Positions 1 to 15,028 of a stretch of 15,028 nt of DNA are shown piece after piece. The DNA comes from Deltaproteobacteria bacterium RIFOXYA12_FULL_61_11 (GTDB lineage: Bacteria; Bdellovibrionota_F; JAHFAK01; YA12-FULL-61-11): NCBI GenBank assembly GCA_001799195.1, contig MGSU01000029.1, positions 1 through 15,028 on the forward strand. Reading direction: 5' to 3'. Position 1 is the first letter of the stretch, and every line of letters starts with the position of its first letter. A model generated the notes under the pieces. That model was not told the DNA's origin. It did no database searches and saw nothing but the letters and a program-made list of their open reading frames with translations. A program made the translations under genes and the position numbers.

Positions 1-83
1 TCTCCCTCGAGAAGTCTGGATCAATCCACCACCTTCTACACAGGAGGGCCTACACTAATCCTGTGTTGAAAACTGTCTCATTT

Positions 84-1236: not shown

Positions 1237-1259
1237 CGTGGGTTCCTCAGGTCAAGGCC

Positions 1260-1287
1260 GGGGTTGAAGGCGATCGTCTTCAACCCC
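1260..1287 (-). terminator. Strong hairpin overlapping the stop codon of the TraB-like gene
   Basis: A perfect 10-bp inverted repeat, ggggttgaag and cttcaacccc, surrounds an 8-base loop. It contains the TGA stop of the TraB-like gene (1280-1282) and lies upstream of the TTG start of the SGNH gene. No run of T follows on either strand, so it is not a classical intrinsic terminator. It may attenuate transcription, stabilise the 3' end of the upstream message or limit read-through into the broken hydrolase gene. Confidence 0.4.
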
Positions 1288-2479
1288 TGTTCAGATAGGT
1301 CGAAACGATCTCGGCACCGGCGAACCAGGTTCCGGCTGCGCTGCCGAGATTGGCGAAGACGACGACCAGCAGGATGCGGGTCACGCGGTTGAACCAGAAA
1401 CCCTTGACCGAGTGGGTGTCGGTAGGCAGGGCCTCGAAGTCGGCGACGGTCGGCCGCCTGATCAAAGCTTCGGTCAGGCCGGCGAACCATCCCGCTGCGA
1501 TCAGGGGGTTGAGCGAGGTGATGGGCGCGGCGACGAAAGCGGTGAGGATAGACAGCGGATGCCCCCATGCAACCAGAGCCCCCAGAGCCGACAGGGTACC
1601 ATTCCACACGATCCAGGCCTTGACCTGCTGCCAACCCATGGCTTGGTCTCCGAGGAAGGTCGAGGCGATCATGGCGACCAGGACCAGGGGAATACCCCAA
1701 CCGAGGAGTTTCGGCACCCGACTGGCCCGCCCTCGTCCCTCGAGAGAGGCCACGTCGATGGGGTGACCGAGCCACTGCTTGATACCGGGGACATGGCCGG
1801 CGCCGATCACGGCGAGGATTTTCTTGCCGGGAGCTTGCATGATCTTGGTCGCGAGGTATTGGTCCCGCTCGTCGATCAAGGCGGTTTTCAGTCGCGGGAA
1901 GGCCGTGGCCATGTCGCGCAGCAGGGTACCCAGCATATCTTCCTGCTTGAGTTGTTCGATCGTGGCCTCGGAGATCGTCTGATCGTCGAAAATACCGCCG
2001 AAGAGGTTTGCCAAGAGTTTCAAGCGGGAAAAAAAGGAGAGGCTGTTCCAGGCCCTCGCCAGGGTGATGTTGACGTCGCGGTCGATCAGCACCAGTTCGG
2101 CACCGTGTTCCTTCGCCGAGGTGATGCCCTGGAGCATTTCCTGCCCGGGTTTGAGGTCCAGGTCGGCGGCGATCTTGCGTTGAAAGGCCCCCAGGACCAG
2201 ATTGATCAGCAGGAGGTGGGTCTTGTGCTCACGAATGACCTTGACGATGTCGGTCTTCTTCCAACGCTCGCGATCGATCATGGCCTCGTAGCGTTGGCGG
2301 CACAGTTCGACGCACACGGTGTCCGGTTTCAGCTCCTCGATGGCCTCGCGGACATCGTCGACGCTGCGTTTGGAAACATGGGCAGTGCCGAGCAAGAAGA
2401 GCTCCCGCTCACCGAGTTGGAGGCGATGTAACTGGGGATTGTCCGTCACCGGTCGTCCTTCGGGTAGGGTCTCGGTCAT
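1280..2479 (-). CDS. TraB/GumN/PrgY-family membrane protein
   Basis: This 399-residue protein belongs by motif to the TraB/PrgY/GumN family, whose founding member PrgY limits pheromone activity in Enterococcus and whose members are thought to be metal-dependent peptidases related to Tiki. The family hallmarks are visible: GTAHVS at residues 31-36, VCVELCRQR at 55-63 with Glu58, DRDVNITLARAW at 133-144, and a second GAGHVPG at 226-232. The C-terminal third holds about four hydrophobic segments (roughly 258-278, 288-307, 308-335 and 367-390), so the protein is anchored in the inner membrane with a soluble N-terminal catalytic domain. The ATG has an AAGGA ribosome-binding site eight bases upstream. 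It begins 12 bases after the tolB stop, so it is almost certainly co-transcribed with the tol genes, which is not the usual partner arrangement. The 'conjugal transfer TraB' name often given to this family would be misleading. The family is confident; the function here is unknown. Confidence 0.88.
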   Translation of the reverse strand: MTETLPEGRPVTDNPQLHRLQLGERELFLLGTAHVSKRSVDDVREAIEELKPDTVCVELCRQRYEAMIDRERWKKTDIVKVIREHKTHLLLINLVLGAFQRKIAADLDLKPGQEMLQGITSAKEHGAELVLIDRDVNITLARAWNSLSFFSRLKLLANLFGGIFDDQTISEATIEQLKQEDMLGTLLRDMATAFPRLKTALIDERDQYLATKIMQAPGKKILAVIGAGHVPGIKQWLGHPIDVASLEGRGRASRVPKLLGWGIPLVLVAMIASTFLGDQAMGWQQVKAWIVWNGTLSALGALVAWGHPLSILTAFVAAPITSLNPLIAAGWFAGLTEALIRRPTVADFEALPTDTHSVKGFWFNRVTRILLVVVFANLGSAAGTWFAGAEIVSTYLNRG

Positions 2480-2491
2480 AGAGGTTTTCCT

Positions 2492-3838
2492 TCAGCGCGG
2501 TAGTGGGCCCCATGCGGGCTCGGTGTAATCTCCAGCGCTCTCTTTGGTGATCAGGGTCTGATTGGTACCGTTGGCTTTCATCATGAAGAGGTGGTAGCGA
2601 CCCGCGACGGTCGTACCCTCGAGCTCGATCTTCCGATTCGAGGCGAACATCAGGTAACGCCCGTCCGGCGACCAGGTCGGGGATTCATTGTTCTCGGTGT
2701 CCCAGGTCAAGCGCTTGAGTTCGCTGCCGTCGAGTTTGACCGTGAACAAGTCGAACTTGCCATCGTCGTCCATGCCCGCGAAGACGATGAGGTCTCCCCT
2801 CGGCGACCAGGCAGGGGTCTCGTTGTTCCGGCCGTTGAAGGTCAGCCGCCGCGGAAAGGTCCCGTCGGCATTCATGATGTACAGATGTCGTTGCCCGGTG
2901 ACCGAGGAGGTATAGACGATCTGTCTTCCATCCGGCGAATAGCACGGCGAGACATCGATGTTCCAGGCGCTGGTCAGGCGTCTGGGCAAGGCCGTTCCCG
3001 TGAGATCCACGAGGAAAATCTCCATGTCGTCACGCGTGGCCATGGACAGGGCCAAATCGGTGCCGTTGGGCGAGAAGGCCGGGCTGCTGATGGTGCTGGG
3101 AAGGTTGGGGAGCTTGCGGAACTGGGGTTTGCCACCTCCGAGCTCAGCAATCCACAATTCCCAACGAAGTCCTGCCAGTTTGACGTAGGCGAGACGTTTC
3201 CCGTCATCGGACCAGTCGGGAGAGAGATGGATGGAACGGTCTTGAGCCACGGGTTCGAGCCCAGCGCCGTCGTAGTCCATGATGTAAATACCCTTGTTCT
3301 TGCCCGGACGTTTGACCGTGAGAGCGATCCTGGTCTCACAGATGCCTTTCTGTCCGGTGATCAACTCGATAATGCGATCCGCCAAACGGTGGACGATCTG
3401 CCGGAGTTGTTTCGGTTTGCCCTGGTATTGTTTGCGATCCAGGGTTTTTCTCCCGATCACGTCATAGAGATAGGCCCCGACTGTGACCGTGTCGCCCTCG
3501 AGCTTGAACCAGCCCTTGCACAGGTAGAGGGCTCCCAGGGCCTGCCACGGGGGGAACTTGATCTGATCGGGTGTGAAGCCCTCCTTCTCGAGGTCGACCA
3601 GGAAGGCCTTGCGGTCGAGCACTTCGAAAAACCCGGACAGTTGGAGGTCTTTTACCAAAATTTCCTCGATCGAAGCCGGGGAAATCGCGCCCTTGACCGA
3701 GGAAAGGTCCTGGAACAAAGCCACGGCGATCGGCGAACGGAATTCAGGGGCTTGGGCCATGTCCACGACCAGTTGCTCCTCTGCCGAAGCAAGACCGGCC
3801 AGCAGCCAGGCCGTGAGCACGAACACGAGGCTCCTCAT
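2492..3838 (-). CDS. tolB: Tol-Pal system periplasmic beta-propeller protein TolB
   Basis: TolB is the periplasmic propeller of the Tol-Pal system; it binds Pal and TolA and helps constrict the outer membrane at division. The chosen start gives 448 residues, close to the family norm of about 430, and a Sec signal peptide (hydrophobic residues 4-17, cleavage likely after Ala-Ser-Ala at 17-19). A GGAG ribosome-binding site precedes it, and the frame extends 45 codons further upstream with no signal-like sequence. The N-terminal domain (about 30-160, including DLQLSGFFEVLDRKAF) matches TolB_N. The C-terminal part carries repeated propeller blades: SPDWSDDGKRLAYVK, SPAFSPNGTDLALSM, SPCYSPDGRQIVYTS, TPAWSPRGDLIVFAG and SPTWSPDGRYLMFAS, then a closing EPAWGP. 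The ATG overlaps the tolA stop as ATGA. No pal gene follows. Confidence 0.96.
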   Translation of the reverse strand: MRSLVFVLTAWLLAGLASAEEQLVVDMAQAPEFRSPIAVALFQDLSSVKGAISPASIEEILVKDLQLSGFFEVLDRKAFLVDLEKEGFTPDQIKFPPWQALGALYLCKGWFKLEGDTVTVGAYLYDVIGRKTLDRKQYQGKPKQLRQIVHRLADRIIELITGQKGICETRIALTVKRPGKNKGIYIMDYDGAGLEPVAQDRSIHLSPDWSDDGKRLAYVKLAGLRWELWIAELGGGKPQFRKLPNLPSTISSPAFSPNGTDLALSMATRDDMEIFLVDLTGTALPRRLTSAWNIDVSPCYSPDGRQIVYTSSVTGQRHLYIMNADGTFPRRLTFNGRNNETPAWSPRGDLIVFAGMDDDGKFDLFTVKLDGSELKRLTWDTENNESPTWSPDGRYLMFASNRKIELEGTTVAGRYHLFMMKANGTNQTLITKESAGDYTEPAWGPLPR

Positions 3839-4797
3839 TGCAGGTCTCCGCTGAGCTTTTCCAGGAGGAGTTTGCCGGGGAAACCGAGCACAATCCCGCG
3901 GTTGGCAAGGTATTCCCTCGCCTCTGCCGGTGGCGGCGGCAAGGGTTCGGACCGCTTGATCGCCTTCACGCAACTCTCGTCATAATCCCGGATGCCCGAG
4001 GCCTTGTCAACGCTGACCTCCAGGATCCTGCCCTCGCTATCGAGCCGGACCAGGATCCGCGCGTAGAGCTCCGGGTAGCGTTTGACCATGGCAATGTTGG
4101 AATAGATCCAGGCCTTGTTGATATTGGGCATGAGCTGGGTGTGAGCATAGACCGCGAAGACTTGGCGCAGGGCCTCCTCGTCGGCCCCCCCCTGGCCCGA
4201 GAAGCCCTGCCGGCCGGGCAACTTGGTGCTATCCGTGCCCTCGAAGTTGTCGATGGATGGTGGAGGGCGGTCATCGTCGTTCTTCATCGCCAGCCCCTCT
4301 GCCTGTTCCAGGCGTTGCGCCAGAGCGGCCAGGGTCTTGGCCTTTTCTCGTTCGCGTTCTTTTGGGTCGACGGTGGCGGGTTTTTCCTGAGAAACCGGAG
4401 ACTCAGGTTTTTTGGGCGGCACCGGTTTCTTCTCGGTTTTGTGGGGCGTCGGTTCCGGGGGGGCAAGGGTCACGCTCTTGGCCGGTTGAGCCGGCAAGAG
4501 TGTCTCCTCGGCCCGGGGGATGGGCAGGACCTCCGGCGGAGGCAGGGCCTTGGGGCGTTTCTTCACCCCCCCCCCCAGCAGGGCAGCATCAATAAAAATG
4601 CCCTTGATCGAGGTGGCTCGCAGGGGTTTTTCCGGCAAAGGCCTCGAGGCCTGGGCAGCGAAGAGCAAGGCCCCGAGCAGCAGATGGCCTCCTAGCGAGA
4701 AGGCTCCTGCCGTCAGCCAAGCCGGACGCCGATCTCGAGGTTTTGGGTGGGAAGTGGGATCGCCGGCCACGAGGAAGCGTTTGGGAGCGAGCTTCAT
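3835..4797 (-). CDS. tolA: TolA-like envelope-spanning protein with TonB/TolA C-terminal domain
   Basis: TolA links the TolQR motor in the inner membrane to TolB and Pal at the outer membrane. This 320-residue protein has the right architecture: a short basic cytoplasmic N-terminus, one membrane anchor (about 30-49, with the SxGGH pattern resembling the SHLS motif used to contact TolQ), a Pro/Lys/Glu-rich extended linker (about 80-160), a helical segment (about 146-172) and a C-terminal TonB_C/TolA-type domain (about 205-310, with RYPELYARILVRLDSEGRIL and a Cys at SCVKAIK). The linker is much shorter than in E. coli TolA (421 residues). The gene starts within the tolR stop (ATGA) and ends within the tolB start (ATGA). 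The coding strand contains an uninterrupted run of 11 G at codons 74-78 and a run of eight C on the plus strand at 4185-4192. The TolA call rests on position between tolR and tolB; by domain alone it could be called TonB-like. Confidence 0.9.
   Translation of the reverse strand: MKLAPKRFLVAGDPTSHPKPRDRRPAWLTAGAFSLGGHLLLGALLFAAQASRPLPEKPLRATSIKGIFIDAALLGGGVKKRPKALPPPEVLPIPRAEETLLPAQPAKSVTLAPPEPTPHKTEKKPVPPKKPESPVSQEKPATVDPKEREREKAKTLAALAQRLEQAEGLAMKNDDDRPPPSIDNFEGTDSTKLPGRQGFSGQGGADEEALRQVFAVYAHTQLMPNINKAWIYSNIAMVKRYPELYARILVRLDSEGRILEVSVDKASGIRDYDESCVKAIKRSEPLPPPPAEAREYLANRGIVLGFPGKLLLEKLSGDLQ
4566..4576. repeat. Eleven-base homopolymer (C11 on plus, G11 on coding strand) in tolA
   Basis: Eleven consecutive C on the plus strand encode Leu-Gly-Gly-Gly-Val (residues 74-78) of TolA, just outside its membrane anchor. 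Runs this long are rare in bacterial coding sequence and slip during replication. Loss or gain of one base would truncate TolA soon after its anchor, removing the linker and C-terminal domain. Confidence 0.9.
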
Positions 4798-5222
4798 CGC
4801 CGCTCGACCTGCCGATCGATCGCTTCGGGTTCGGTAATGAGGCCCAATTCCTCGTATCCGGCGTTCTTGATGGCTGCCATGACCTTGATGACCACGTCAT
4901 AGGGCAAGGTCCGCGCCGCGGCCAAGTAGATGGCTTTGTCCTTGCGAACGCTGCGCAGATTCCGCAGTTTTTCCTCGAACCGGTCGAGCCCGTAGAACTG
5001 GTCGAGAATCGCAATCCGCCGCTGCGCATCGACGCTGACCACGAGCTCGTCGGGAGCGCTTGTGACCGCACCGGCCTTGGCCTGCGGCAGTTCGATCGCA
5101 ATGCCCTGATGAATGAGCGGAGCGGTGACCATGAAGATCACCAGGAGGACCAACATCACATCCACGAGTGGGGTGACGTTGATGTCGGAGAGTGCGGTGC
5201 CGTGGTTCGCCTGGAGTGCCAT
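4794..5222 (-). CDS. tolR: TolR, ExbD/TolR-family motor subunit
   Basis: TolR is the bitopic inner-membrane subunit that works with TolQ to turn the proton-motive force into motion of TolA. The protein has 142 residues, the usual length. After a 12-residue cytoplasmic stretch comes the single membrane segment, INVTPLVDVMLVLLVIFMVT (14-33), with Asp21 in the place of the essential proton-carrying aspartate (Asp23 in E. coli TolR). The rest is the periplasmic ExbD/TolR fold, including the DELVVSVDAQRRI and LPYDVVIKVMAAIKNAGYEELGL elements. Its ATG overlaps the tolQ stop by one base (TGATG), and its stop overlaps the tolA start. Confidence 0.96.
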   Translation of the reverse strand: MALQANHGTALSDINVTPLVDVMLVLLVIFMVTAPLIHQGIAIELPQAKAGAVTSAPDELVVSVDAQRRIAILDQFYGLDRFEEKLRNLRSVRKDKAIYLAAARTLPYDVVIKVMAAIKNAGYEELGLITEPEAIDRQVERR

Positions 5223-5956
5223 CAGAAGAAGTGCCGCTTTACTATGTTTATGAAATCGTTCGAGAAATTATCAATCTCGGAGGAGAGTACCCTGATCGTG
5301 CTGAGGAAATGGTTGTAGAAGACCACCGCCGGGATGGCCGCGAACAAGCCGACCGCCGTGGCGACCAAGGCCTCGGAGATGCCCGGCGCGACCACAGCCA
5401 GACTCGTGTCCTTGCTGGCGCCGATGTTGATGAAACTGTTCATGATGCCCCACACCGTACCGAACAATCCGATGAAGGGCGCGGTACTGCCCGTGGTGGC
5501 GAGGAAGGGGACCAGGCTTTCCAGGCGGGTTACTTCACTGGTCGCTGCGCGGCGAAGAGCGCGGTGGACGTTATCGATGCCGCCGATGTCTTTGGAAATG
5601 TCGGCCGGTGCGGTACCACCCTCACGCGCGGCTTCCTTCTCACGCTGTTTCGCGTTGGTCTTGACGTTGACCAGTTCGATGTACCCGGCCTTGAAGACCT
5701 CGGTCAAGGGGCAGACCTTCAATTTCTTGGCCGCCTCGTAGATGGTATCCAGCCGGTTACTGTTCCAGAAAATCTCCAAGAAGTGGTTGGAGGCTCGCCT
5801 CGCCGAGCGTAAGGCGCGGAGTTTCACCAAGATAACCGTCCACGACGCTACCGAGAGGAAGAACAGGAGAAAAAGCACGGCCTTGACGACCGGACCTGCC
5901 TCGGCTACCAACTGCAGAATTCTGGTGGTCTCCGAGGGGTTCACGAGTTGCTCCAT
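5222..5956 (-). CDS. tolQ: TolQ, MotA/TolQ/ExbB-family proton channel
   Basis: TolQ forms the pentameric proton channel around TolR in the inner membrane. The start at 5954-5956 gives 244 residues, close to the usual 230 or so, and follows an AAGGGGA ribosome-binding site; a 46-codon upstream extension of the frame has no family similarity. Three membrane segments are visible at about 22-44, 150-173 and 193-215. The family signature sits in the second: PFLATTGSTAPFIGLFGTVWGIMNSF spans residues 150-175, with Thr155-Thr156 and Thr168 lining the proton path. The third contains PGISEALVATAVGLFAAIP (191-209). The large cytoplasmic loop lies between segments 1 and 2. It is the first gene of the tolQRAB run. 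Confidence 0.96.
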   Translation of the reverse strand: MEQLVNPSETTRILQLVAEAGPVVKAVLFLLFFLSVASWTVILVKLRALRSARRASNHFLEIFWNSNRLDTIYEAAKKLKVCPLTEVFKAGYIELVNVKTNAKQREKEAAREGGTAPADISKDIGGIDNVHRALRRAATSEVTRLESLVPFLATTGSTAPFIGLFGTVWGIMNSFINIGASKDTSLAVVAPGISEALVATAVGLFAAIPAVVFYNHFLSTIRVLSSEIDNFSNDFINIVKRHFF

Positions 5957-5989
5957 CGACAATTCCCCTTGGGCTCTACCCGATCGAAG

Positions 5990-6012
5990 TGGTACACTCT
6001 GGCCGGGTACCA
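5990..6012. promoter_or_regulatory. Inverted repeat in the tolQ leader / divergent gap
   Basis: tggtac (5990-5995) and gtacca (6007-6012) form a 6-bp inverted repeat around an 11-base spacer. It lies 34 bases upstream of the tolQ ATG, between the tolQ start and the divergent lipoprotein operon. It could be a protein-binding site or a leader hairpin; no regulator can be named. Confidence 0.35.
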
Positions 6013-6052
6013 GAGCGGCAGCCAATGCCGGAGAAGAGAGCCGAACGTCACC

Positions 6053-6589
6053 ATGACCAGTAACTATCGAAAATCCAACGATAGATACGCGCATCCTGAC
6101 GGCGATGTCAAGACCGGTGGGGGGATTTCAGCCTCTCGTGTCGGACGCTCGAGGCCGAAGGTAGGCCCTCCCGTGCTCGCCGGTTCCGTACCTCCGCCGG
6201 GCACGGCCCTCCTCCTCCTCCTCGCCCTGCTAGCCACTGCCTGTGGGGGGTCGAGCTTCAAGGTCGAGCTCTTCCTCAAGTTCGATCCTTCGGTGGCCAA
6301 TCCCGCTCTCTATTCCCAGCCCGGCAACGTCTACACCATCTATCTGTACGACACTGCCAACGACCAAAACCCGATCTGGTGGGACTACTTCGATGGCACC
6401 AAGACCAAAAGCATCAGCGTTCCCGCTGAATTAGCCGACATCCCCGTGTGGATCCGGGTCTTGGTCCAGAACCAGGCCGGAGCCTTCCTCTTCGACGGGT
6501 ATATCGGGGGACCGAGCAACATGTTCTATCTCCCCGATATCCAAGCCCAGTATGGCGGTCTCCAAATAACCTTGATCAGCACGCAATGA
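6053..6589 (+). CDS. Small lipoprotein, unknown function (first gene of operon)
   Basis: I do not recognise this protein. From the ATG at 6053 it has 178 residues; a GTG at 6173 would give 138 and place the signal peptide at the very N-terminus, which is the more natural form. The leucine-rich stretch ALLLLLALLATAC ends in a lipobox (Ala-Thr-Ala-Cys64), so the protein is a predicted lipoprotein. The mature part, CGGSSFKVELFLKFDPSVA onward, is about 115 residues with no Cys and looks like a compact beta-rich domain (VYTIYLYDTANDQ, SISVPAELADIPVWIRVLVQN, GGLQITLIS). This pattern resembles small immunoglobulin-like or cytochrome-operon accessory lipoproteins, but no family can be named. Its stop overlaps the next start (ATGA), so it is translationally coupled to the second lipoprotein. 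It is divergent from tolQ. Confidence 0.75.
   Translation: MTSNYRKSNDRYAHPDGDVKTGGGISASRVGRSRPKVGPPVLAGSVPPPGTALLLLLALLATACGGSSFKVELFLKFDPSVANPALYSQPGNVYTIYLYDTANDQNPIWWDYFDGTKTKSISVPAELADIPVWIRVLVQNQAGAFLFDGYIGGPSNMFYLPDIQAQYGGLQITLISTQ
6064..6084. promoter_or_regulatory. Inverted repeat overlapping a candidate tolQ -10
   Basis: ctatcg (6064-6069) and cgatag (6079-6084) form a perfect 6-bp inverted repeat with a 9-base spacer. It overlaps the candidate -10 element of the minus-strand promoter, which is where a repressor would sit. If this is a true operator, the longer start of the divergent lipoprotein (6053) is less likely than a start at 6173. Confidence 0.35.
6082..6111 (-). promoter_or_regulatory. 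Candidate sigma-70-type promoter for the tol operon
   Basis: On the minus strand a perfect TTGACA (6111-6106) is followed after 18 bases by TATCTA (6087-6082), a weak -10. The start point would be near 6075, giving a leader of about 120 bases before tolQ. The -35 match is exact but the -10 has only three of six consensus bases. Confidence 0.35.
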
Positions 6590-6792
6590 GACGGAGCAAC
6601 ACTACCATGGCACCTCTGCAGCTCTTCAAGGCGATATTCCCGGTGATCCTGATCTTGACCGCGGGTTGCGGCCATGACATCAGCATCAAGGGCTTCGACC
6701 AAGCCTACGCCCAGTCCTCCAGCTCCGCAGCGTATGCCAGCACGCTCGAGGACAGCAGCCCCGATACCTCTACCGAGGAGGTCGAGGAATGA
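6586..6792 (+). CDS. Very small lipoprotein (68 residues)
   Basis: The start overlaps the previous stop as ATGA, and an internal Met8 (6607) is an alternative. A hydrophobic stretch (about 11-24) ends in the lipobox LTAGC with Cys28 as the lipidated residue. The mature peptide is only about 40 residues: CGHDISIKGFDQAYAQSS followed by a Ser/Ala-rich and then a Thr/Glu-rich acidic tail. The segment right after the lipid Cys (ISIKGF) resembles that of the next gene (VEVQGF), so the two may share an origin. It has no recognisable domain. The gene is too short to be called with full confidence on composition alone, but the overlaps on both sides and the clear lipobox support it. Confidence 0.72.
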   Translation: MRRSNTTMAPLQLFKAIFPVILILTAGCGHDISIKGFDQAYAQSSSSAAYASTLEDSSPDTSTEEVEE

Positions 6793-7280
6793 ACCTACCT
6801 GTCAGATCATGCCTATTCCTCGCGCCGTTCCTCTTGCTACTCCACGGATGTGGCGGGGTGGTCGAGACCGTCGAGGTCCAGGGTTTCCGCGCTGCCACCA
6901 GTCAGGACCTCGCACCTGCTCCGACCACCGACGAGCCGACCGAACCTGCCGTCACCTTCGACCAAGACGTCTATCCCATTCTGGTCAGGATGAGTTGCAC
7001 CGTCCAGGTCTGCCACAGTACCCAATTCCCCAAGGGCAATCTCGACCTCAGCGAGACCTCGGTCGCCTATACCAACATCGTTATCGACAAGGCCGCGAAA
7101 CCCACGACGCAGAGCGGAGACTATCGGGTCAACCGTGCGCAACCCGAACAGAGCCTAATCCTCACGGCCACCCTCTCGGGTAGTACTTCAGGGCATGCAG
7201 CGGTACAGAGCTGGCAGGTCGATGACGCCGACTACAAAACGATCCTGCAATGGCTCTCGACCGGCCTGAGCCGTTTTTGA
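6789..7280 (+). CDS. Lipoprotein with C-x4-C-H cytochrome-like motif
   Basis: The 163-residue product has a signal peptide ending in LLHGC (lipid Cys21), a Thr/Pro-rich linker (about 38-54), and a globular domain beginning VTFDQDVYPILVRMSC. Cys70 and Cys75-His76 form CTVQVCH, a C-x4-C-H pattern. Many periplasmic proteins in planctomycetes and myxobacteria begin a small cytochrome-c-like domain with the pattern F..dVyPIL...C...CH, then end with a W-x-hydrophobic helix like the LQWLSTGL here (153-160). The usual haem motif is C-x2-C-H, so covalent haem is plausible, not proven. The likely distal ligand is uncertain (a His at 136 is one candidate). It overlaps the previous gene by 4 bases and the next by 31 bases. 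Confidence 0.82.
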   Translation: MNLPVRSCLFLAPFLLLLHGCGGVVETVEVQGFRAATSQDLAPAPTTDEPTEPAVTFDQDVYPILVRMSCTVQVCHSTQFPKGNLDLSETSVAYTNIVIDKAAKPTTQSGDYRVNRAQPEQSLILTATLSGSTSGHAAVQSWQVDDADYKTILQWLSTGLSRF

Positions 7281-8488
7281 AGGTGGCACCTCCGCTTTCC
7301 CTAGTCTTACTGAAGGTTCCCCAGGAACGTCGTGCTCGCCTCGAGAGCCGACTGCAAGCCTTACCGATTGCCGAGTTGTTGACCTGCGAGGAACTCGGGG
7401 ATTTCTCCCACTGCCTGCGGTCCCGTCCCGGACGGCCGATCGCTCTTGTCGCCGCCTTCGAACCCGACACTCCAACATTCCTCGAGCTCCTCGCGGAAAG
7501 ATCTGGTCCGAAATCAGCGTGTTGCGGGGTCTTATTGCCCCCCCCCGGAGGCGGTGCAGAGGCCGTGACCGCTCTTCGGAACAGGGGCTTAGGCCTCGCG
7601 GACTTCGAGGTGTTGTCGGATCGCTGCGACGACCCTGAGCTGCTGGAAACCCTTGGCCAACTGCTCCGGGCGCATGACCGGGCTCACGCCGAATGCGACC
7701 TCTTGGCTTCCCTCCTCCGCCTCGAACGGACCGCTCTCGCGGGCGGTCTCAGGTACTTGTTGCAAGGCTGTCTGTCCGAGCTGGCGTCGACCATCGATCA
7801 CCACGGACCTGGCTTGGCCGCCGACTTCCGGGCCCTGTTCGGACTCATTACCGAGGCCGAGACCAACCTCGCCTTCACCGCGACCCGGCGTGAAGAGCTC
7901 CTGCAGGAGCGTGCGAGGCTCCTGCATCGTATCGAGGCCGCTCTCGGAGAGACGATCGCAGCCGGAGAGGCAGCCGTGGTGCTTACCACCTCCCTGGCCG
8001 AGCTGACCCGTGCGGCCATGACCAGGATCGAGAGCGTCTCGCTCGAGGAGGTTTTCAGACACTGCCTCCTCGCGGCCTACCGGGAGCGCGGATTAGAACT
8101 CGAGGGGAAGTTCCCCCACGGGGAGCATCGGCTGGTCCTCGATTCGACTACCTTGCACCTGGCAATGCTCGCCCTGGCGCGCTATCTTGCCTCGCTGCCA
8201 TGTTCCGGCGCGACCCCTGCCTGGCATTGGAAGGAAATTCGCCGCATTTCCGGCTCGACCATCCTGACCGTGGAGACCCACGGTCAGGTCCTGCCTCGGC
8301 AAACCGTGCTTCCTCGCACGCTGGACTTCTACCTCAGCTACCTCGACCGTTCCCCCGCGCAGCCGGAGCTGCACCTGGCTTACTGCCGCAAAGCTATCGA
8401 GAAGCTCGACGGTTCTCTCGACCTCGTGGTCGGGACCGAAGGCCGGGGCAAGCTATCCCTGCGCTTACCGGGAAGGGAGGCGGGATGA
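7250..8488 (+). CDS. Degenerate histidine-kinase-like protein, paralogue 1
   Basis: The ATG at 7250 lies inside the preceding gene; a GTG at 7283 just after that gene's stop is an equally good start. The 412-residue protein has no membrane segment. Residues 15-140 look like a receiver-type fold without the phosphoacceptor: the equivalent strand reads PIALVAAFEPDTP. Residues 160-260 form a helical, DHp-like region in which STIDHHGPGL (180-189) sits where a kinase has its H-box. The C-terminal part resembles the kinase ATP domain only at its last strands (RKAIEKLDGSLDLVVG, then LSLRLPG). The N-box helix, LHLAMLALARYLAS, has Arg311 instead of the magnesium-binding Asn, and no DxGxG is present. 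It aligns along its length with the following protein. Its stop and the next start overlap (ATGA). A C9 run lies at 7538-7546. Confidence 0.8.
   Translation: MALDRPEPFLKVAPPLSLVLLKVPQERRARLESRLQALPIAELLTCEELGDFSHCLRSRPGRPIALVAAFEPDTPTFLELLAERSGPKSACCGVLLPPPGGGAEAVTALRNRGLGLADFEVLSDRCDDPELLETLGQLLRAHDRAHAECDLLASLLRLERTALAGGLRYLLQGCLSELASTIDHHGPGLAADFRALFGLITEAETNLAFTATRREELLQERARLLHRIEAALGETIAAGEAAVVLTTSLAELTRAAMTRIESVSLEEVFRHCLLAAYRERGLELEGKFPHGEHRLVLDSTTLHLAMLALARYLASLPCSGATPAWHWKEIRRISGSTILTVETHGQVLPRQTVLPRTLDFYLSYLDRSPAQPELHLAYCRKAIEKLDGSLDLVVGTEGRGKLSLRLPGREAG
7538..7546. repeat. Nine-base C run in the first kinase-like gene
   Basis: Nine consecutive C encode Pro97-Pro98-Pro99 of the first kinase-like protein. 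A 1-base slip would truncate the protein within its pseudo-receiver half. It is shorter than the tolA run but is still a slippage-prone tract. Confidence 0.85.
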
Positions 8489-9615
8489 GCGAGCGCCGAC
8501 CGACCGAGCACCTCCCCGACCGACCCGAGCTGCTCTTGCTCTCCCTCGCCAGGGGCAAGAGCGTTCTTCGGGAGCTGTTGCCTCCTTCCCGGCACGTCGC
8601 GATGTTCCGCGAGGTCGCGGCCTTGAGCTCGCATTGCGCGAAGGTGAGCGATCGAGGAGCCTTGGTCTTGCTCGAGGTCGAGCCTGAGGACGCCCCCCGC
8701 GCCGGAGACATCCTGCAAGAGCTCCGGAACCTGTCCAACGGACCGATCGAACCCCTGCTCGTGGCGACTGGTCCTGGCAGTTCCTTACGCTGGGCAGACG
8801 GCGATCGGACCTTGGTGCTCGGCTGGCTCGGAACGATGGAGGCGAGACTCGAGCGGACTCTCCGGGCCAACAAGGCCGATGCACTGCTGGTCGCGAACAA
8901 TCGCTCGCTGTTGATCTCCTCGCTCGTCGCAGGCATCGTCCACGAGATCAACAATCCCCTCTCCGTGGTGCAGGGCGATGCACCCTTCCTACGCGGACTC
9001 TGCCCGCAACTCGCGGCCTTGCTCGACCGTTATCTCTCCGGGTGCGGACATGCTGACGTGGTCGCCTATCGCGACGAGATCGCCTACGAATTTCTTGCCG
9101 AGGATGCCGTCGATGCCCTGGCGAACCTCGGTCTGGCTCGCGAACGCCTCACCAAGATCCTCGAGGGACTGACCACGGTGGGCTCAGAGGAAGCCGAGGG
9201 AACTGCCTCCCTCGTCGACTTGGTTCCTCGGGTCGACGCACTGCTCGCCCTCGGCCTACCCTCGGGATCCGTTCGTTTTCTGTGGAAAGGTCAGGGAACA
9301 GGCCCCACGCTGCCGTCTTCTCTCGGACTCGAGTTGCTGTACCTCTTGGCCCGGGGGCTTCTCGAGACTCGCCCACGAGCTACCGGTCTCGACCTCGAGA
9401 CGCGGGAGCACGAGGGCTTTACCATCGTCAAGCGCTGGCTCCCCGGAGCAGCGGTCGAGGACCAACCTCGCGAACTCTCGGCCCTGTTGAGCAACTCCGA
9501 ACACCTCGCCCGACTCCTCCTGGCCCGCCTCGAGTCGTTGCAGGAATACCTGTCCGTCGAGCTCACCGTCGCATCCTCGCCCGGGGAACTCCGGCTCCAG
9601 GTCAGCCTGGGCTGA
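8485..9615 (+). CDS. Histidine-kinase-like protein with H-box but no ATP-binding motifs, paralogue 2
   Basis: The start at 8485 overlaps the previous stop (ATGA) and follows a GGGAGG sequence. The 376-residue protein has no membrane segment. Residues 14-120 look like a receiver fold; the strand ALVLLEVEPED (59-69) corresponds to the usual LVLLDVxMPD with Glu64 in place of the phosphorylated Asp. Residues 138-180 hold a canonical H-box, AGIVHEINNPLSVV, with His153 as the likely phosphoacceptor. The second DHp helix is probably around 205-232. The expected ATP-binding motifs are absent: the N-box helix reads LELLYLLARGLLE with Arg290 where Asn should be, and there is no DxGxG or GxGxG. The protein could accept phosphate from another kinase, as Spo0B-type phosphotransferases do, or act as a scaffold. 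It ends nine bases before the convergent LVIVD gene. Confidence 0.85.
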   Translation: MSERRPTEHLPDRPELLLLSLARGKSVLRELLPPSRHVAMFREVAALSSHCAKVSDRGALVLLEVEPEDAPRAGDILQELRNLSNGPIEPLLVATGPGSSLRWADGDRTLVLGWLGTMEARLERTLRANKADALLVANNRSLLISSLVAGIVHEINNPLSVVQGDAPFLRGLCPQLAALLDRYLSGCGHADVVAYRDEIAYEFLAEDAVDALANLGLARERLTKILEGLTTVGSEEAEGTASLVDLVPRVDALLALGLPSGSVRFLWKGQGTGPTLPSSLGLELLYLLARGLLETRPRATGLDLETREHEGFTIVKRWLPGAAVEDQPRELSALLSNSEHLARLLLARLESLQEYLSVELTVASSPGELRLQVSLG

Positions 9616-9624
9616 GAGCACTAC

Positions 9625-12279
9625 TCATGGAACCTGCGGTGCTCTCGGGGGTAGGATCAGGCCGGCCGGACCATCGAGTCGGGGGTAGTACAAACGGTCC
9701 TCGACCACCTGGCCTGCCGTCCAGGCATTGCTGCCCCGGAATCGGTACCGGCTGGCGCAGTGGAGAGCAGTTCCGGGGCCGTGGATAGTGAAACCCAGGC
9801 CGAAGTAATCCCCGAGCACGAAGCCGTCGGCAGCACGCACGACATCGACCCAATAACTCGGGTAGGGGAGCCGCCAGGTCTCGACCAGCCTGGGAACCGG
9901 GCCGTTGCAATCGATCAGGTAAAGACTGGGCTCCCAGGCCTCGACCGGCCCGCCGTGCAGGGCGGCGACCAGCCCGCGGTGGACCCCGAAGCGGCCGAGA
10001 TAGTCGATGTTGAAGCGGCCGGAATTCTTCCAATGGGGGTCGGAGAACGGAGTTCCGAGGCCGGCCAGCTTTCCCTGCCCGACCTCGAAGCGCTGCAGCA
10101 CGCCGAGCACCGGGTCCAGGACATAGACCGTCTCGTCCTCAACCTCGAGCGTCGGGGTGAAGGCATTGCCCTCGCGTTCCGGCAAGGTGATCGAAGAGAG
10201 GAGTCGGAAGCCGGTCTTGGGTTCGAAGGAGAACATGCCCAGGGCTGGAACATAGCGGCGGTGCGAGACCTCGACCATGCCCAGGACCACCGCGATCGGC
10301 CCCGCGAAACGGATCCTTGGGGTGTGCAGGTCGCCGAGCAGCCCGGGGAACTCGAGCAGTTCACCCGTCTTGCGCGGGCGCGCCGGGTCGCGTACATCCA
10401 ACACGGTGAGTGAACCGGCCGAGGGGAGGAAGAGGTGCCCCTCGTGCAACACGGGTTTCGCCTGCAGCCATTTGCCGTCCCAGTACTCGCCGATCCGTTC
10501 CATCACGTCCCCGCGCTCGCGGAAGAAGAGGACGCTACCACCGAAGGTCTGGCCGAATGCGACCAGGCCGTCGCCCGCGGCGAGGTAGTGCCCTTCGGCC
10601 GCGGTGAGGTGCTTGCCCAGGGGCAGCAGACTCCCGTCGGGGCGCAACCGGTAGAGGCGAAGACCGAGATTGTAGTCGTTCAAGGCCACGAGGTCGCCCT
10701 CGATACTGATCGTCCTCAACTCGCCCAAATCGTCCTCAGCATGGATGGAAACCGGTTCCAGCGAAGTGGTAGTAAGGACATGCACGGCGGAGCGGGTCTG
10801 TCTGAAGGGCTGGACCGAGTGCAGGGATTGGCGTTCGATGCTGTCTACTGCCAAGACGTGCGGCCCGACCACCGCGGCGTCCTCGAAGTTGACCTCGGTG
10901 CCGTAGTCCCTCGCGGCGAGGGAACGGGGTATGGTGGGATCGGACACGTCAAGGAGTTCCAACCGGTTGAAGCGATGATTGTTCTTCCCTTCCGACAAGA
11001 GCACGATCCGGTCCCGGACGGCCAGGAAGCGGCGCTCGCGGCCTGCCGGGGTCGCCACCCTGGCGAGCAACCTGGGTTTTCTCGGGTCCGAGACCTCGAC
11101 CACGCCGAGACTCCCGTCGTTGAGGCCGAGATACACCCGCGGTCCTTCGCGCAGGAAGTACCAGGCTCCCCGCGAACCCTTCACCCGAAGGCTGGCCAGA
11201 GTCTTCGGCCGAGGTGGATCAGAGAGGTCGAGCAGATAGAAACAGGTGTCGTGGTGCGGGGTGGCGGCGAAGACCAGCCCCGGGAGTTCGGGCAGGGGTT
11301 CCACGGCACGAACCGCGCCCAGGGTCTTCACGGGTACGGTGACGGGCACCCCGGGATGCGCGGGGTCGGAGATGTCTACGTGGAGCAGCCCCAGGGAAGA
11401 AGGAAGGAGGAGGGCATCGTCGAGAAACGCCACGCCTGCGAGGAAACCGGCCGGCAGGAAGGCGACGGTGCGGGGTTGCTCCGGTGCGCGTATATCCACG
11501 ATCTGCAACTCGCCCTCGCCGGGGGGGACGAAAGCAAAGCCCTTCCGCAGGGCTATCTTGCCCCGCCCCGGAACACCAAAACCCACGCGGTGGTGCAGGT
11601 GAGGTTCCGGTCTCGGGGGTTGTCTCCACAGCCCGATCGGTTCTTCCTGGGAGACGAGGGTTGCCGGCTTGAACCGCTTGACCAGGGGGGGCACCGCGGT
11701 GTGCCAACCGGTCAGAGGCGCACCCTCCTCGTCGAGGAAGCTCGAGCCGTCGGCGGCGACGCCGCGCAGGTTCTCGAACCAGGTGCCGGCGTCGTGGTCC
11801 ATGCGGAGGCCAAGCAGCCCCACGTGCCCACCCGGCAGGGTTCCGTCCAGGCGTTGCACCTCCTCGCCGCCGACCGAGAAACGCAGACCGTCCCCCCAGC
11901 GGAGGCTCAATCGGACCAGGGTTGCCGTTTCGTTGACCCTCGCGATGCGGGCCACCGGGTCGATCCGCTCCCCCTTGAAGCGATAGATCGATATCCCGTG
12001 GTGCAGGCGATCGTCGAGCCCGAAGTACCACCCCGTGGAAGTCGCCGGGTCATAGCCGAAAACCAGTCCGGCCAGGGCGTTGTTCCCGGCCGTGGCCACC
12101 TCGACCCCGAGTTCGCCGCTGCTCGGGAGGGGGATGTTGCGATGGACGAAAGCGCAGTTGCGTCGGTCGCGGTCATTGGTGCCCGCCTTGGCCAGGGGCA
12201 CCCCTAGGACACTGTTGGCGGCCGATCCGAGGGTGGGGCAGAGCAGCACGAGGACGGCCAGCGTGCGCCACGGGCTCAT
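9625..12279 (-). CDS. Secreted LVIVD-repeat protein with LamG-like N-terminal domain
   Basis: The 884-residue product begins with a Sec signal peptide (hydrophobic 6-18, likely cleavage near Ala20-Ala21). Residues 45-175 resemble a jelly-roll of the LamG / 3-keto-disaccharide-hydrolase (DUF1080) type: GWYFGLDDRLHHGISIYRF, a TLVRLSLRWGDGLRFSV strand pair and GHVGLLGLRMDHDAGTWFEN. From about residue 255 on come repeated LVIVD-type units of the form hhhhDhsDPxxPr, visible at about 258 (LQIVDIRAPEQPR), 298 (LLHVDISDPAHPG), 347 (FYLLDLSDPPRPK), 391 (LGVVEVSDPRKPR), 440 (LELLDVSDPTIPR) and 624 (LTVLDVRDPARPR); such repeats build beta-propeller blades. The location is the periplasm or cell surface; the ligand is unknown. 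Its ATG overlaps the stop of the SRPBCC gene, so the two form one operon. No catalytic residues are apparent. Confidence 0.88.
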   Translation of the reverse strand: MSPWRTLAVLVLLCPTLGSAANSVLGVPLAKAGTNDRDRRNCAFVHRNIPLPSSGELGVEVATAGNNALAGLVFGYDPATSTGWYFGLDDRLHHGISIYRFKGERIDPVARIARVNETATLVRLSLRWGDGLRFSVGGEEVQRLDGTLPGGHVGLLGLRMDHDAGTWFENLRGVAADGSSFLDEEGAPLTGWHTAVPPLVKRFKPATLVSQEEPIGLWRQPPRPEPHLHHRVGFGVPGRGKIALRKGFAFVPPGEGELQIVDIRAPEQPRTVAFLPAGFLAGVAFLDDALLLPSSLGLLHVDISDPAHPGVPVTVPVKTLGAVRAVEPLPELPGLVFAATPHHDTCFYLLDLSDPPRPKTLASLRVKGSRGAWYFLREGPRVYLGLNDGSLGVVEVSDPRKPRLLARVATPAGRERRFLAVRDRIVLLSEGKNNHRFNRLELLDVSDPTIPRSLAARDYGTEVNFEDAAVVGPHVLAVDSIERQSLHSVQPFRQTRSAVHVLTTTSLEPVSIHAEDDLGELRTISIEGDLVALNDYNLGLRLYRLRPDGSLLPLGKHLTAAEGHYLAAGDGLVAFGQTFGGSVLFFRERGDVMERIGEYWDGKWLQAKPVLHEGHLFLPSAGSLTVLDVRDPARPRKTGELLEFPGLLGDLHTPRIRFAGPIAVVLGMVEVSHRRYVPALGMFSFEPKTGFRLLSSITLPEREGNAFTPTLEVEDETVYVLDPVLGVLQRFEVGQGKLAGLGTPFSDPHWKNSGRFNIDYLGRFGVHRGLVAALHGGPVEAWEPSLYLIDCNGPVPRLVETWRLPYPSYWVDVVRAADGFVLGDYFGLGFTIHGPGTALHCASRYRFRGSNAWTAGQVVEDRLYYPRLDGPAGLILPPRAPQVP

Positions 12280-12818
12280 GGTCTGGCGCCGTGGGTGTCC
12301 TTGAGATAGGCGTTGAGGCTCTTGTTCACCCCCTTGAGGTTGGGCATCAAGAGCGCGGTCAGGAAGCGTTCCGCGGCGGTGATGGCCTTCCCCTTGAGGA
12401 AGGAGGGAATTGCCCGGATATTGTCCAGATTGATGTCCACCTTCACGGCCACGCTCATGGTGCAGCTCTGCTCGTTCTTAGCCTCGAAGGAGGTTCGGCC
12501 CGTGACCTTGATGTTCTCGCGCAGGAAAGCGGTCTCGAGCTTCCAGGTGCAGAAGAGACCCGGCTCGTTCCAAAGGGCATAGTCGTCCCAGCACAGCTTG
12601 TCCTCGGAGATGACCGGCTTGAGGATGACCGGAATGGAGGCTTTGAGGAACCAGACGTTGTGCAACTCGATGAGGCCGGGACCCGGCTCCTTGCGCGAGC
12701 GGACCTCGATTCGTTCGACGTTCTCGAGGTACGGCACGAAGTCGGCCATTTCATCGCGGTAGGCCAGGAAGGCCATGGTTGCAGGGAAATCGACAAGATC
12801 GTTAGCGGTGAGCTCCAT
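12276..12818 (-). CDS. SRPBCC (START-like) domain protein
   Basis: The 180-residue protein has no signal peptide and no membrane segment. Its layout fits the helix-grip SRPBCC fold: an N-terminal helix-strand start (FPATMAFLAYRDEMADFVPYLENVERIEVRSR), a series of short strands (LIELHNVWFLKASIPVILKPVI, LCWDDYALW, FCTWKLETAFLRENIKVTGRTSFEA, CTMSVAVKVDINLDNI) and a long C-terminal helix (AITAAERFLTALLMPNLKGVNKSLNAYLKD). Such proteins bind hydrophobic ligands or lipids in a central cavity; the ligand here is unknown, and the family call is by fold pattern, not by a signature motif. The ATG has a GGAGG ribosome-binding site. The gene is divergent from smpB and leads directly into the secreted LVIVD protein through an ATGA overlap. 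Confidence 0.78.
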   Translation of the reverse strand: MELTANDLVDFPATMAFLAYRDEMADFVPYLENVERIEVRSRKEPGPGLIELHNVWFLKASIPVILKPVISEDKLCWDDYALWNEPGLFCTWKLETAFLRENIKVTGRTSFEAKNEQSCTMSVAVKVDINLDNIRAIPSFLKGKAITAAERFLTALLMPNLKGVNKSLNAYLKDTHGARP

Positions 12819-12837
12819 GGGATCCTCCGGGCCTGCG

Positions 12838-12856
12838 TTCGCCTACGTTCGGCGAA
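12838..12856. promoter_or_regulatory. Inverted repeat in the SRPBCC/smpB divergent region
   Basis: ttcgcc (12838-12843) and ggcgaa (12851-12856) form a perfect 6-bp inverted repeat with a 7-base spacer. It sits 19 bases upstream of the SRPBCC start, a position suited to a dimeric repressor or to a leader hairpin on the SRPBCC message. Confidence 0.4.
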
Positions 12857-12865
12857 ACCGTTTGC

Positions 12866-12907
12866 CAGCGGTCCGGTCCCGTGCTACCCAGGACTGCAGC
12901 GGTCCGG
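12866..12907. promoter_or_regulatory. Pair of 11-bp direct repeats, 31-bp period, between SRPBCC and smpB
   Basis: cagcggtccgg occurs exactly at 12866-12876 and 12897-12907. The 31-bp period is close to three turns of B-form DNA, so both copies face the same side of the helix. They lie in the middle of the 155-bp divergent region, which suggests a cooperative activator or repressor site that could serve both genes. Confidence 0.45.
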
Positions 12908-12973
12908 CCGAATTGCGGGACGATAGCCGGATCGCGACGAGTTGGCAATCACATTCACGGCGGAGGACCGGCG

Positions 12974-13423
12974 ATGGACGGGGTGATCTGCACCAATCGC
13001 AAGGCCCGACACGACTATTTCATTGAGGGCAGCTTCGAGGCCGGCATCGTCCTCACCGGCACCGAGGTGAAGAGCCTGCGTTCGGGCCGCGCCAACCTCC
13101 GCGATGCCTATGCCAAGGTCGAGGGCGGCGAGCTGTGGCTCTGCAACTGCCACATCGACGAGTACGAGTTTGGCAACCGCTTCAACCACAATCCCTTGCG
13201 CGAGCGCAAGCTGCTCATGCACCACCGCGAGATCATCAAGCTCGAGGTCAAGACCCGCGAGCGCGGCTTCACCATCATCCCCCTCTCCATGTACTTCAAG
13301 AAGGGCCGGGTGAAACTCGAACTCGGATTAGCGCACGGGAAGCGCAAGTACGACAAACGGCAGGCCCTGAAGCAGGAAGAGGTCAAGCGCGAGCTCGCCA
13401 AGATCCAGCGCCAGCGCTGGTGA
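12974..13423 (+). CDS. smpB: SsrA-binding protein SmpB
   Basis: SmpB binds the tRNA-like part of tmRNA and guides it into stalled ribosomes for trans-translation. The ATG follows a strong GGAGGA ribosome-binding site with a six-base gap and gives 149 residues, the usual length. The family features are clear: NRKARHDYFIEGSFEAGIVL (8-27), TGTEVKSLRSGRANLRDAY (28-46), the HIDEYEFGNRFNHNPLRERKLL segment (60-81) typical of the tmRNA-binding barrel, and the basic C-terminal tail HGKRKYDKRQALKQEEVKRE (121-140), which folds into the mRNA channel. No tmRNA gene is seen within this window. The gene stands alone, divergent from the SRPBCC gene and convergent with the lipoprotein gene. Confidence 0.98.
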   Translation: MDGVICTNRKARHDYFIEGSFEAGIVLTGTEVKSLRSGRANLRDAYAKVEGGELWLCNCHIDEYEFGNRFNHNPLRERKLLMHHREIIKLEVKTRERGFTIIPLSMYFKKGRVKLELGLAHGKRKYDKRQALKQEEVKRELAKIQRQRW

Positions 13424-13503
13424 GGGGAACGTTCAGTACCCGAGGCCCACTGTACTCCTCTGGTATCGAAGTCCAACTTGGCAAGCACGATAAGAAAGCG
13501 TCG

Positions 13504-14238
13504 TCAGAACTCTTCCTCCTCGGCCAGGAGGAAATACCAGAAGCCCTTGCAGGACCAGGGATCACCGCCCTGGAAGGAGTACAACCGCGCAGTCGCCGCG
13601 ATGTTGGCCTCGGGATCGAAGGGGCTCACTCCAGGGAAACCGGCGTTCTTCGCCCGCTTGGGCCAGTATTTCTGCAAATGCTGGAAAAGGCCCGCGGCGC
13701 CGGACCTTTTATTCTCGGCGTTGGGATTGCCATGACTCTCGCAGTTCATCACCTTGATTGCCCAAGCCATGTCCTCGGGTTCGAAGTATTTTTCCAGTAA
13801 TGGACGCCACGCCTCGGCGCGATGGGTGCGCCAGTCGAAGCAGGAGTAGTCGCCATCGGCATAGGGTTTGGTGTCGTCGAGACAGTTCACGCGCGTGGCC
13901 TGCGCGACGGGTTGGTCAGGAGTCGTGGGCTCGGCTTGCGGGTGCAGAGCCGGAGGCTCCGGCAGCGTGCCTTGCGGAGCCTCGGGGAGCGCGCCCTGTT
14001 CGGCGCTGCTTTGAGGCTGTTCGGGAGCGGCAGGGCTTGGGGTTGGCTCAAAGACGTGGCCGAAGGGTTCTGCCGTGTCCGAGTCTTCGAAACCGTTCTC
14101 GATCTCCTGCCCGCACCCGAGAGTTAGGCTGAGTACGAGGATGAGTGCCCCACCGAATCTGAGCGAGAATGGCGAGCGTGGCCGAAGTTTGCAAGCGCCA
14201 AGGAACTTTTTCGCTTCGGTGAGTTGCAATATGACCAT
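13504..14238 (-). CDS. Lipoprotein with SLT-like lytic transglycosylase domain
   Basis: The 244-residue product has a 27-residue basic leader, a hydrophobic stretch (29-40) and a lipobox TLGC with lipid Cys42. A Pro/Glu/Gln/Ala-rich spacer (about 60-112) follows, long enough to reach the cell wall. Residues 150-232 form a lysozyme-like fold of the SLT group: AIKVMNCESHGNPNA (160-174), in which Glu167 is the expected catalytic acid, then SGAAGLFQHL (179-188), the counterpart of the SxGLMQ motif of SLT enzymes, and FDPEANIAATARLY (207-220). Cys119, Cys133, Cys166 and Cys230 could form disulfides. The enzyme would cleave peptidoglycan from its membrane anchor. The start ATG (14236-14238) has only a weak ribosome-binding site. 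A TATTAT -10-like element is visible on its strand at 14352-14347, about 110 bases upstream. Confidence 0.87.
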   Translation of the reverse strand: MVILQLTEAKKFLGACKLRPRSPFSLRFGGALILVLSLTLGCGQEIENGFEDSDTAEPFGHVFEPTPSPAAPEQPQSSAEQGALPEAPQGTLPEPPALHPQAEPTTPDQPVAQATRVNCLDDTKPYADGDYSCFDWRTHRAEAWRPLLEKYFEPEDMAWAIKVMNCESHGNPNAENKRSGAAGLFQHLQKYWPKRAKNAGFPGVSPFDPEANIAATARLYSFQGGDPWSCKGFWYFLLAEEEEF

Positions 14239-14560
14239 TATTGGTGATTTCTTGGTGAACAGTTCAGGTCGTTCATACCATGGTGGCGCATGGGAAATCT
14301 CCGCAACACTGCCCCGGGGTGTGTAAATAACAGCAAATACTGCGCCATAATAGACCTGTATACAACGCCATGATTAGTGTTGCGAATTGGAATAATGAAT
14401 GTTCTGGAAGAAGAAGTTGCATCAAGGTGCAATAAAAAACAGAGTAAAATTTTTCGCTACCAACCCGTCGATTGTGTACCGTGCCCAATTGTTCTTACAC
14501 AAGTTACGCAATGTTGCTTTTTTCACCAGCTATTGACCCCAGCAACAGAGAGGTCATATC
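14239..14560. other. AT-rich intergenic stretch between two lipoprotein genes
   Basis: About 320 bases without a credible gene. From about 14330 to 14560 the sequence is visibly richer in A and T than the rest of the window (for example ttggaataatgaatg and caataaaaaacagag). It holds a small inverted repeat, ttgca (14417-14421) and tgcaa (14428-14432), a TATTAT on the minus strand (14352-14347) and a ttgacc on the plus strand (14533-14538). These suit a divergent promoter region, but none of the elements is strong enough to be called on its own. Confidence 0.6.
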
Positions 14561-15028
14561 TTGAGAAACAAAGCTATGTGGCGGAGCCGGCCGATGGTAC
14601 CTCACAATACCTCTACCCTCGATCATCGATGCGATGCCCTTCTCGTGCTGGGGTTGTTGCTCTTTGTGGCGTGTGGTCAATCGGAGACGTCCGGCACGCC
14701 TCCCTCGGGTTTGTCGCCTGTGCTCGGGGGCGGTGCTCCACCCCCACGAAATCCCCCTCTCGTGGGCGAAGAAGACCAGTCCGCCGATCCCGAACTCGAG
14801 GAAGACCCTGGAACCCCGGAGGGTACGACCGACGAGGGCGAAGAGGATGCCGATGAGACGAACGACGTGGGGGTTACCGAAACCCCAGAAATACTAGACA
14901 CGACCGCTCCCGACCCGAAGGACCCCGGCAAGCCTGAGGTGGATGATGGTGCGGCAGGGCAGGATGCAGCGACCTTCAACGTGTTGATCGTCGGCTGGGA
15001 CGGGGTCCAGCGAGAACATTTAGAGGAT
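14561..15028 (+). CDS. Lipoprotein of the alkaline phosphatase / phosphodiesterase superfamily (3' end missing)
   Basis: The frame is open to the right edge. A TTG at 14561 has a GAGG ribosome-binding site seven bases upstream; an in-frame ATG at 14576 lacks one. A hydrophobic stretch ends in LLFVACGQ, with Cys38 (TTG numbering) as the likely lipid residue. Then comes a long Gly/Pro- and Asp/Glu-rich spacer (about 40-138), and at the very end a globular domain begins: FNVLIVGWDGVQREHLED. The pattern hhhhGxDGhqrxhL is the first strand of alkaline-phosphatase-superfamily enzymes (sulfatases, type I phosphodiesterases), in which the Asp of GWDG binds a catalytic metal. Only this first strand is visible, so the exact subfamily cannot be given. 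The acidic spacer suggests a domain held well away from the membrane. Confidence 0.75.
   Translation, partial: MRNKAMWRSRPMVPHNTSTLDHRCDALLVLGLLLFVACGQSETSGTPPSGLSPVLGGGAPPPRNPPLVGEEDQSADPELEEDPGTPEGTTDEGEEDADETNDVGVTETPEILDTTAPDPKDPGKPEVDDGAAGQDAATFNVLIVGWDGVQREHLED

Follow-up and report, generated by a model that had tools for sequence, protein, structure and literature searches.

Degenerate histidine kinases that serve as phosphotransferases are established, with Spo0B, ChpT, and PhyT as examples (PMC5898713, PMC9981736), and DivL is a non-catalytic pseudo-kinase regulator with a tyrosine at the histidine site (PMC5361649). Pseudokinases can also modulate a partner kinase, as in the case of a ChrS variant that forms heterodimers with HrrS (PMC9491836). 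The hybrid response regulator LvrB, which has receiver (REC), DHp, and catalytic (CA) domains in the order REC-DHp-CA, carries both the receiver aspartate and the autokinase histidine (PMC5863495). Bacterial pseudo-receivers are described as common yet little understood, and consideration of pseudo-histidine kinases alongside them is just beginning (PMC12632262). Here we analyze five consecutive genes (genes 1–5) of Deltaproteobacteria bacterium RIFOXYA12_FULL_61_11, located in a window that comprises bases 1–15028 of the 19,248-base contig C29 in a draft genome of 4.64 Mb (342 contigs, 87% complete). A sequence-only reading of the window had described exported lipoproteins beside cytoplasmic pseudo-kinases without a membrane receptor, and this picture holds: gene 5 has an H-box but no catalytic motif, and gene 4 has a modeled receiver fold followed by a histidine kinase-like remainder. 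A tandem pair of this sort, with the phosphoacceptor histidine alone left in one protein and no recognizable active site in the other, would lend itself to studying which functions remain in such proteins.

Gene 5 and its intact H-box

The DHp domain of gene 5 is recognized by Pfam HisKA at residues 145–172 with an E-value of 1.1e-4, at a score of 22.6 bits that is under the Pfam cut-off of 26.9, and residues 121–256 align by hhalign with an E-value of 8e-19 to a profile built from 44 histidine kinases. The motifs were compared in an alignment of 45 rows, made up of gene 5 and 44 kinase segments from its own and other genomes. At the level of sequence the H-box is intact, with H153, E154, N157, and P158 invariant in all rows, gene 5 included. 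Gene 5 has lost the N box (N286, N290), the G1 box (D319), the F box (F331), and the GTGLGL G2 box, all of which are conserved in the other rows, and there is no match to HATPase in Pfam. Gene 5 as an active histidine kinase was rejected on the loss of all catalytic boxes. The description of genes 4 and 5 as "kinase-like" in the sequence-only reading is apt for their ancestry and does not extend to activity.

The model of gene 5, which was built with the kinase alignment, shows the DHp domain at a predicted local distance difference test (pLDDT) value of ~97, with the alpha/beta part less certain. The C-terminal part has the element order of a catalytic domain, lacking the ATP lid and the G2 helix, and this fold is possibly biased toward kinases because the input alignment consists of kinases. 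Foldseek matches for gene 5 include DHp-CA kinases and ChpT, with 4fpp giving the highest template modeling score by target among the matches listed (0.44, E 0.03). In the VIA comparison the ChpT rows align 172–177 residues across positions 121–376, the longest coverage among the rows, at Z values of 7.3–7.7, a range that unrelated helical proteins also reach. A phmmer search against solved structures returned only a weak ZraS match. Detection of a receiver by sequence at the N terminus was not above shuffles, and the segment LLEVEPED, tried as receiver beta 3 with a glutamate at the aspartate position, proved unusable (score 17.1 versus a shuffle maximum of 19.3). Relatives were searched in 386 genomes, of which a single one belongs to the same class and the rest are related at the domain level only, and these contained no full-length relative of gene 5, the only part found being the DHp part of ordinary kinases.

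Gene 4 as a putative pseudo-receiver protein

Gene 4 has no family match, no match to HATPase in Pfam, no convincing relatives in the 386 genomes, none in viral contigs, and nothing meaningful among solved structures by phmmer. Its single-sequence model, with a mean pLDDT of 43, has a (beta-alpha)5 order followed by long helices and then a HATPase-like tail. In this low-confidence model the receiver fold matches receiver domains with Z up to 12.6, at 2.4 Å over 118–120 residues, and the top Foldseek match is LvrB, the REC-DHp-CA hybrid response regulator (E 3.6e-4). The receiver fold of gene 4 and the catalytic-like order of secondary-structure elements in genes 4 and 5 are features of low-confidence models, and we describe them as putative. 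The receiver aspartate is missing, as the sequence from beta 3 onward reads IALVAAFEPDTP with no aspartate at the strand end, and there is no acidic pair after beta 1. The H-box is missing as well, with Gly173, in RYLLQGCLSELAS, at the position equivalent to His153 in the extended hhalign register. Genes 4 and 5 show no evident transmembrane helix, the best 19-residue hydropathy being 1.23 and 1.57, respectively, versus 1.8–1.9 in the lipoprotein signal peptides. The hhalign score of gene 4 against the profile including gene 5 is 37.9, compared with a maximum of 24.1 in 150 shuffles. Because gene 4 aligns well above shuffles only with a profile containing gene 5, an origin of the two genes as a pair from duplication would fit these scores.

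Proposed function of genes 4 and 5

In our proposal, the ancestors of genes 4 and 5 were histidine kinases of the REC-DHp-CA type (hybrid response regulators), and catalysis has since been lost from both. Gene 5 retains the phosphoacceptor His153, followed by Glu (+1) and Asn (+4), but is unable to bind ATP in the usual manner. As a dimer, it would serve as a histidine phosphotransferase or a phosphatase, like ChpT, Spo0B, and PhyT, for at least one receiver domain whose gene lies elsewhere in the genome. Gene 4 would be the inactive partner, controlling the state of gene 5 by binding either to it or to a receiver. The phosphotransferase role is favored for gene 5 because the full H-box is retained, and the role of a non-catalytic regulator is favored for gene 4 because everything has been lost there. 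Possible partners for gene 5 are ample, since the genome contains ~78 receiver-domain matches; none of them, and no intact receiver gene among them, is located on the 19-kb contig C29. We infer phosphotransfer, the partnership of genes 4 and 5, and co-transcription, and we hold the reading of two dead kinase descendants, with gene 5 a phosphotransferase or phosphatase and gene 4 its inactive partner, tentatively, as having nearly an even chance of being correct.

Several observations weigh against this proposal. Neither a partner receiver nor a relative of the operon has come to light, and of the 386 genomes only one is of the same class. The N-terminal 120 residues of gene 5 match no identified domain, and its C-terminal part taken alone is not above shuffles, the catalytic fold being assigned from element order and position. 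Against a histidine kinase profile that leaves out gene 5, gene 4 is at shuffle level (22.4; shuffle maximum 24.6), its receiver is undetectable by sequence (16.0; shuffle maximum 22.6), and its model is of low confidence (mean pLDDT 43). Alternatively, both proteins could be non-catalytic regulators like DivL or RocA, altering the activity of a response regulator or active kinase by binding to it without carrying phosphate, in which case His153 would be a relic. This would agree with the disappearance of active-site residues from the gene 4 receiver, as placed by fold, and from both catalytic domains, and partner-modulating pseudokinases are known in DivL (PMC5361649) and in the heterodimers of the ChrS variant with HrrS (PMC9491836). 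However, the H-box of gene 5 (H153, E154, N157, P158) is wholly kept where the other motifs are gone, suggesting its continued use, and we consider a purely regulatory role for both proteins somewhat unlikely.

Gene starts and overlaps

The geometry given in the sequence-only reading is present in the DNA: there are five open frames, all on the plus strand, with ATGA at three junctions and an overlap of 31 bases at the fourth (genes 3/4). That all four junctions are overlaps is upheld at 2/3 and 4/5, where the Shine-Dalgarno matches are strong (−12.5 and −10.6 kcal/mol, respectively), and depends at 1/2 and 3/4 on starts that have no Shine-Dalgarno match. For gene 2, ATG 6607 is preceded by a match and ATG 6586 is not, and for gene 1 the match before GTG 6173 is better than that before 6053, with a negative codon score for 6053–6172; ATG 6607 and GTG 6173 are the more likely starts of genes 2 and 1. 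Gene 4 has no convincing Shine-Dalgarno match before any candidate start, and it may begin at TTG 7277 or GTG 7283, leaving 4 or 0 bases of overlap.

Junction base rates were determined on 20 contigs of the same genome (loci L080–L099; ~390 kb, 334 genes) using our own simple codon-usage caller. Overlaps are found at 69 of the 217 co-directional junctions (32%). At 53 of the 217 an exact 4-bp start/stop overlap could form; this is by far the commonest junction type, a sharp peak, with at most 9 junctions at any other offset from −22 to +11. The five-gene overlap run is the longest in the 20-contig sample, yet it is not unexpected, with a run of at least four overlapping junctions arising in 37% of label shuffles. 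The divergent tol genes of the window overlap likewise. Because overlap is the ordinary junction in this genome, the overlaps do not imply joint function, and the fixed stoichiometry that had been read from them is not supported. Overlap as evidence for a complex was rejected on the same figures. As this case illustrates, start and stop codons that overlap say little about a joint function when the genome is compact. The genes themselves are real and the intuition of pseudo-kinases was correct; the grounds for a joint system are weak.

The lipoprotein genes are probably co-transcribed with genes 4 and 5, and a functional link between them is possible. They may instead be chance neighbors in a tightly packed genome, sharing a promoter and no function with genes 4 and 5, as the base rates of overlaps and of runs would allow. 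Against a chance arrangement of the whole run, genes 4 and 5 probably have the same layout, and the profile brings out a resemblance between them, indicating that those two at least belong together. We regard chance adjacency of the lipoproteins as a serious possibility that falls short of probable; it concerns the lipoproteins and is compatible with the phosphotransferase reading of gene 5 and its partnership with gene 4.

The predicted lipoproteins and the heme domain of gene 3

A hydrophobic stretch precedes the lipobox cysteine in each of genes 1–3. Lipoproteins are predicted for genes 1 and 2, the lipoboxes of which fit a PROSITE-like pattern, and the prediction is less firm for gene 3, where LLHGC does not strictly fit. 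Gene 1 has no relatives in the 386 genomes. In other genomes gene 3 matches large proteins at their N-terminal domain, with E-values down to 1.2e-8, and the four large relatives that were scanned all contain PSCyt2 (DUF1549) and PSD1 (DUF1553), a Planctomycete-type pair. The heme motif CX4CH can be read directly in gene 3 and is common to the aligned large relatives, as is a conserved second histidine that could be the distal ligand. Gene 3 is likely to be a mono-heme c-type domain, as predicted from its sequence. The Pfam PSCyt1 model does not match gene 3, and phmmer against solved structures gave nothing meaningful. The motifs F..DV.PIL, CX4CH, PE.SL, the second histidine, and Y..I..W of the N-terminal heme domain in PSCyt2/PSD1 proteins are also found in gene 3. 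Gene 3 differs from those proteins in having only this domain after its lipoprotein-like signal; it has no PSCyt2, PSD1, or Ig-like domain. The one same-class genome has a relative of gene 3 with CXXCH. A paralogue with CX4CH (CATAGCH) and a lipoprotein-like signal is located on contig C22 of the same genome (L075, 1486–2106, minus strand), between radical-SAM-like and GDSL/SGNH-like genes (sequence-based names) and with no kinase alongside.

The suggestion that all three lipoproteins are sensors is not supported by this analysis, one of them (gene 3) being a predicted heme protein. In a trans-envelope arrangement the heme lipoprotein and its neighbors would sense periplasmic redox state or a ligand and signal to the soluble pair via a membrane protein encoded elsewhere. 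Gene order and overlaps, together with the predicted heme domain, would be in keeping with this, and a histidine-kinase pseudokinase affects heme tolerance in another bacterium (PMC9491836), which is a loose analogy only. However, the operon has no membrane protein, overlaps are ordinary in this genome, and the C22 paralogue has no kinase beside it; we consider such signaling improbable. The full combination, in which three lipoproteins (one a periplasmic heme protein) exert control via a membrane step over two catalytically dead hybrid response regulators joined in a soluble heteromer, with a phosphotransferase role for one of the two, is very improbable.

Setting of the five genes

The features of the locus are listed in Table 1. 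No sigma-70-like promoter was found in 5900–9700, and Rfam gave no match. The SGNH/GDSL-like gene (sequence-based name) at window positions 50–1236 on the minus strand is apparently split into overlapping frames, 775–1236 and 50–910, indicating a frameshift either in the organism or in the assembly. Further down the contig are a lytic transglycosylase (SLT) domain protein predicted to be a lipoprotein (window 13504–14238, minus), a phosphodiesterase/sulfatase-like protein (L099, 14762–16063, plus), and a CHAP-domain protein (L099, 16134–17027, minus).

Table 1. Features of the five-gene locus and its surroundings, in window coordinates
Feature	Position	Strand	Description
Gene 1, predicted lipoprotein	6053–6589	+	178 amino acids from ATG 6053, 138 from GTG 6173; lipobox LATAC; without known family
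Gene 2, small predicted lipoprotein	6586–6792	+	68 amino acids from ATG 6586, 61 from ATG 6607; lipobox LTAGC
Gene 3, predicted exported, probably lipid-anchored, mono-heme c-type domain protein	6789–7280	+	163 amino acids; CX4CH (CTVQVCH)
Gene 4, putative doubly dead hybrid-response-regulator-like protein	7250–8488	+	pseudo-receiver (~14–140), helical region, degenerate catalytic-like domain (~265–410)
Gene 5, pseudo-histidine kinase	8485–9615	+	N-terminal domain that may be a pseudo-receiver; DHp domain retaining H153 (HEINNP); catalytic domain degenerate
tolQ, tolR, tolA, tolB, then a TraB/PrgY/GumN protein	1280–6094	−	TraB/PrgY/GumN protein comes after tolB instead of pal and cpoB
LVIVD-repeat protein	downstream of the five genes		convergent
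Probable divergent control region	5957–6172		lies between gene 1 and the minus-strand tolQ, provided that GTG 6173 is the start of gene 1

Comparison with known signaling proteins

Gene 4 shares with LvrB the order of a receiver fold, a helical DHp-like region, and a catalytic-like domain, as far as its model indicates. In contrast to LvrB, gene 4 has neither the aspartate nor the histidine, and gene 5 has the histidine only. Gene 5 resembles ChpT, Spo0B, and PhyT in having a DHp domain with a phosphoacceptor histidine and a degenerate catalytic domain, the CA fold of gene 5 being modeled at low confidence, and the ChpT rows cover most of its DHp-CA part. It differs from these three proteins in its extra N-terminal domain and in grouping by sequence with the HEINNP kinases. 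The likeness to DivL consists of a kinase fold without catalysis and, for gene 4, the lack of an H-box. DivL is membrane-anchored, whereas genes 4 and 5 look soluble. The proposal of an undescribed system is not sustained by these comparisons, as pseudo-histidine kinases and pseudo-receivers are recognized kinds of protein (PMC12632262, PMC5361649, PMC5898713). The parts of the locus are of known kinds, and their combination is unusual.

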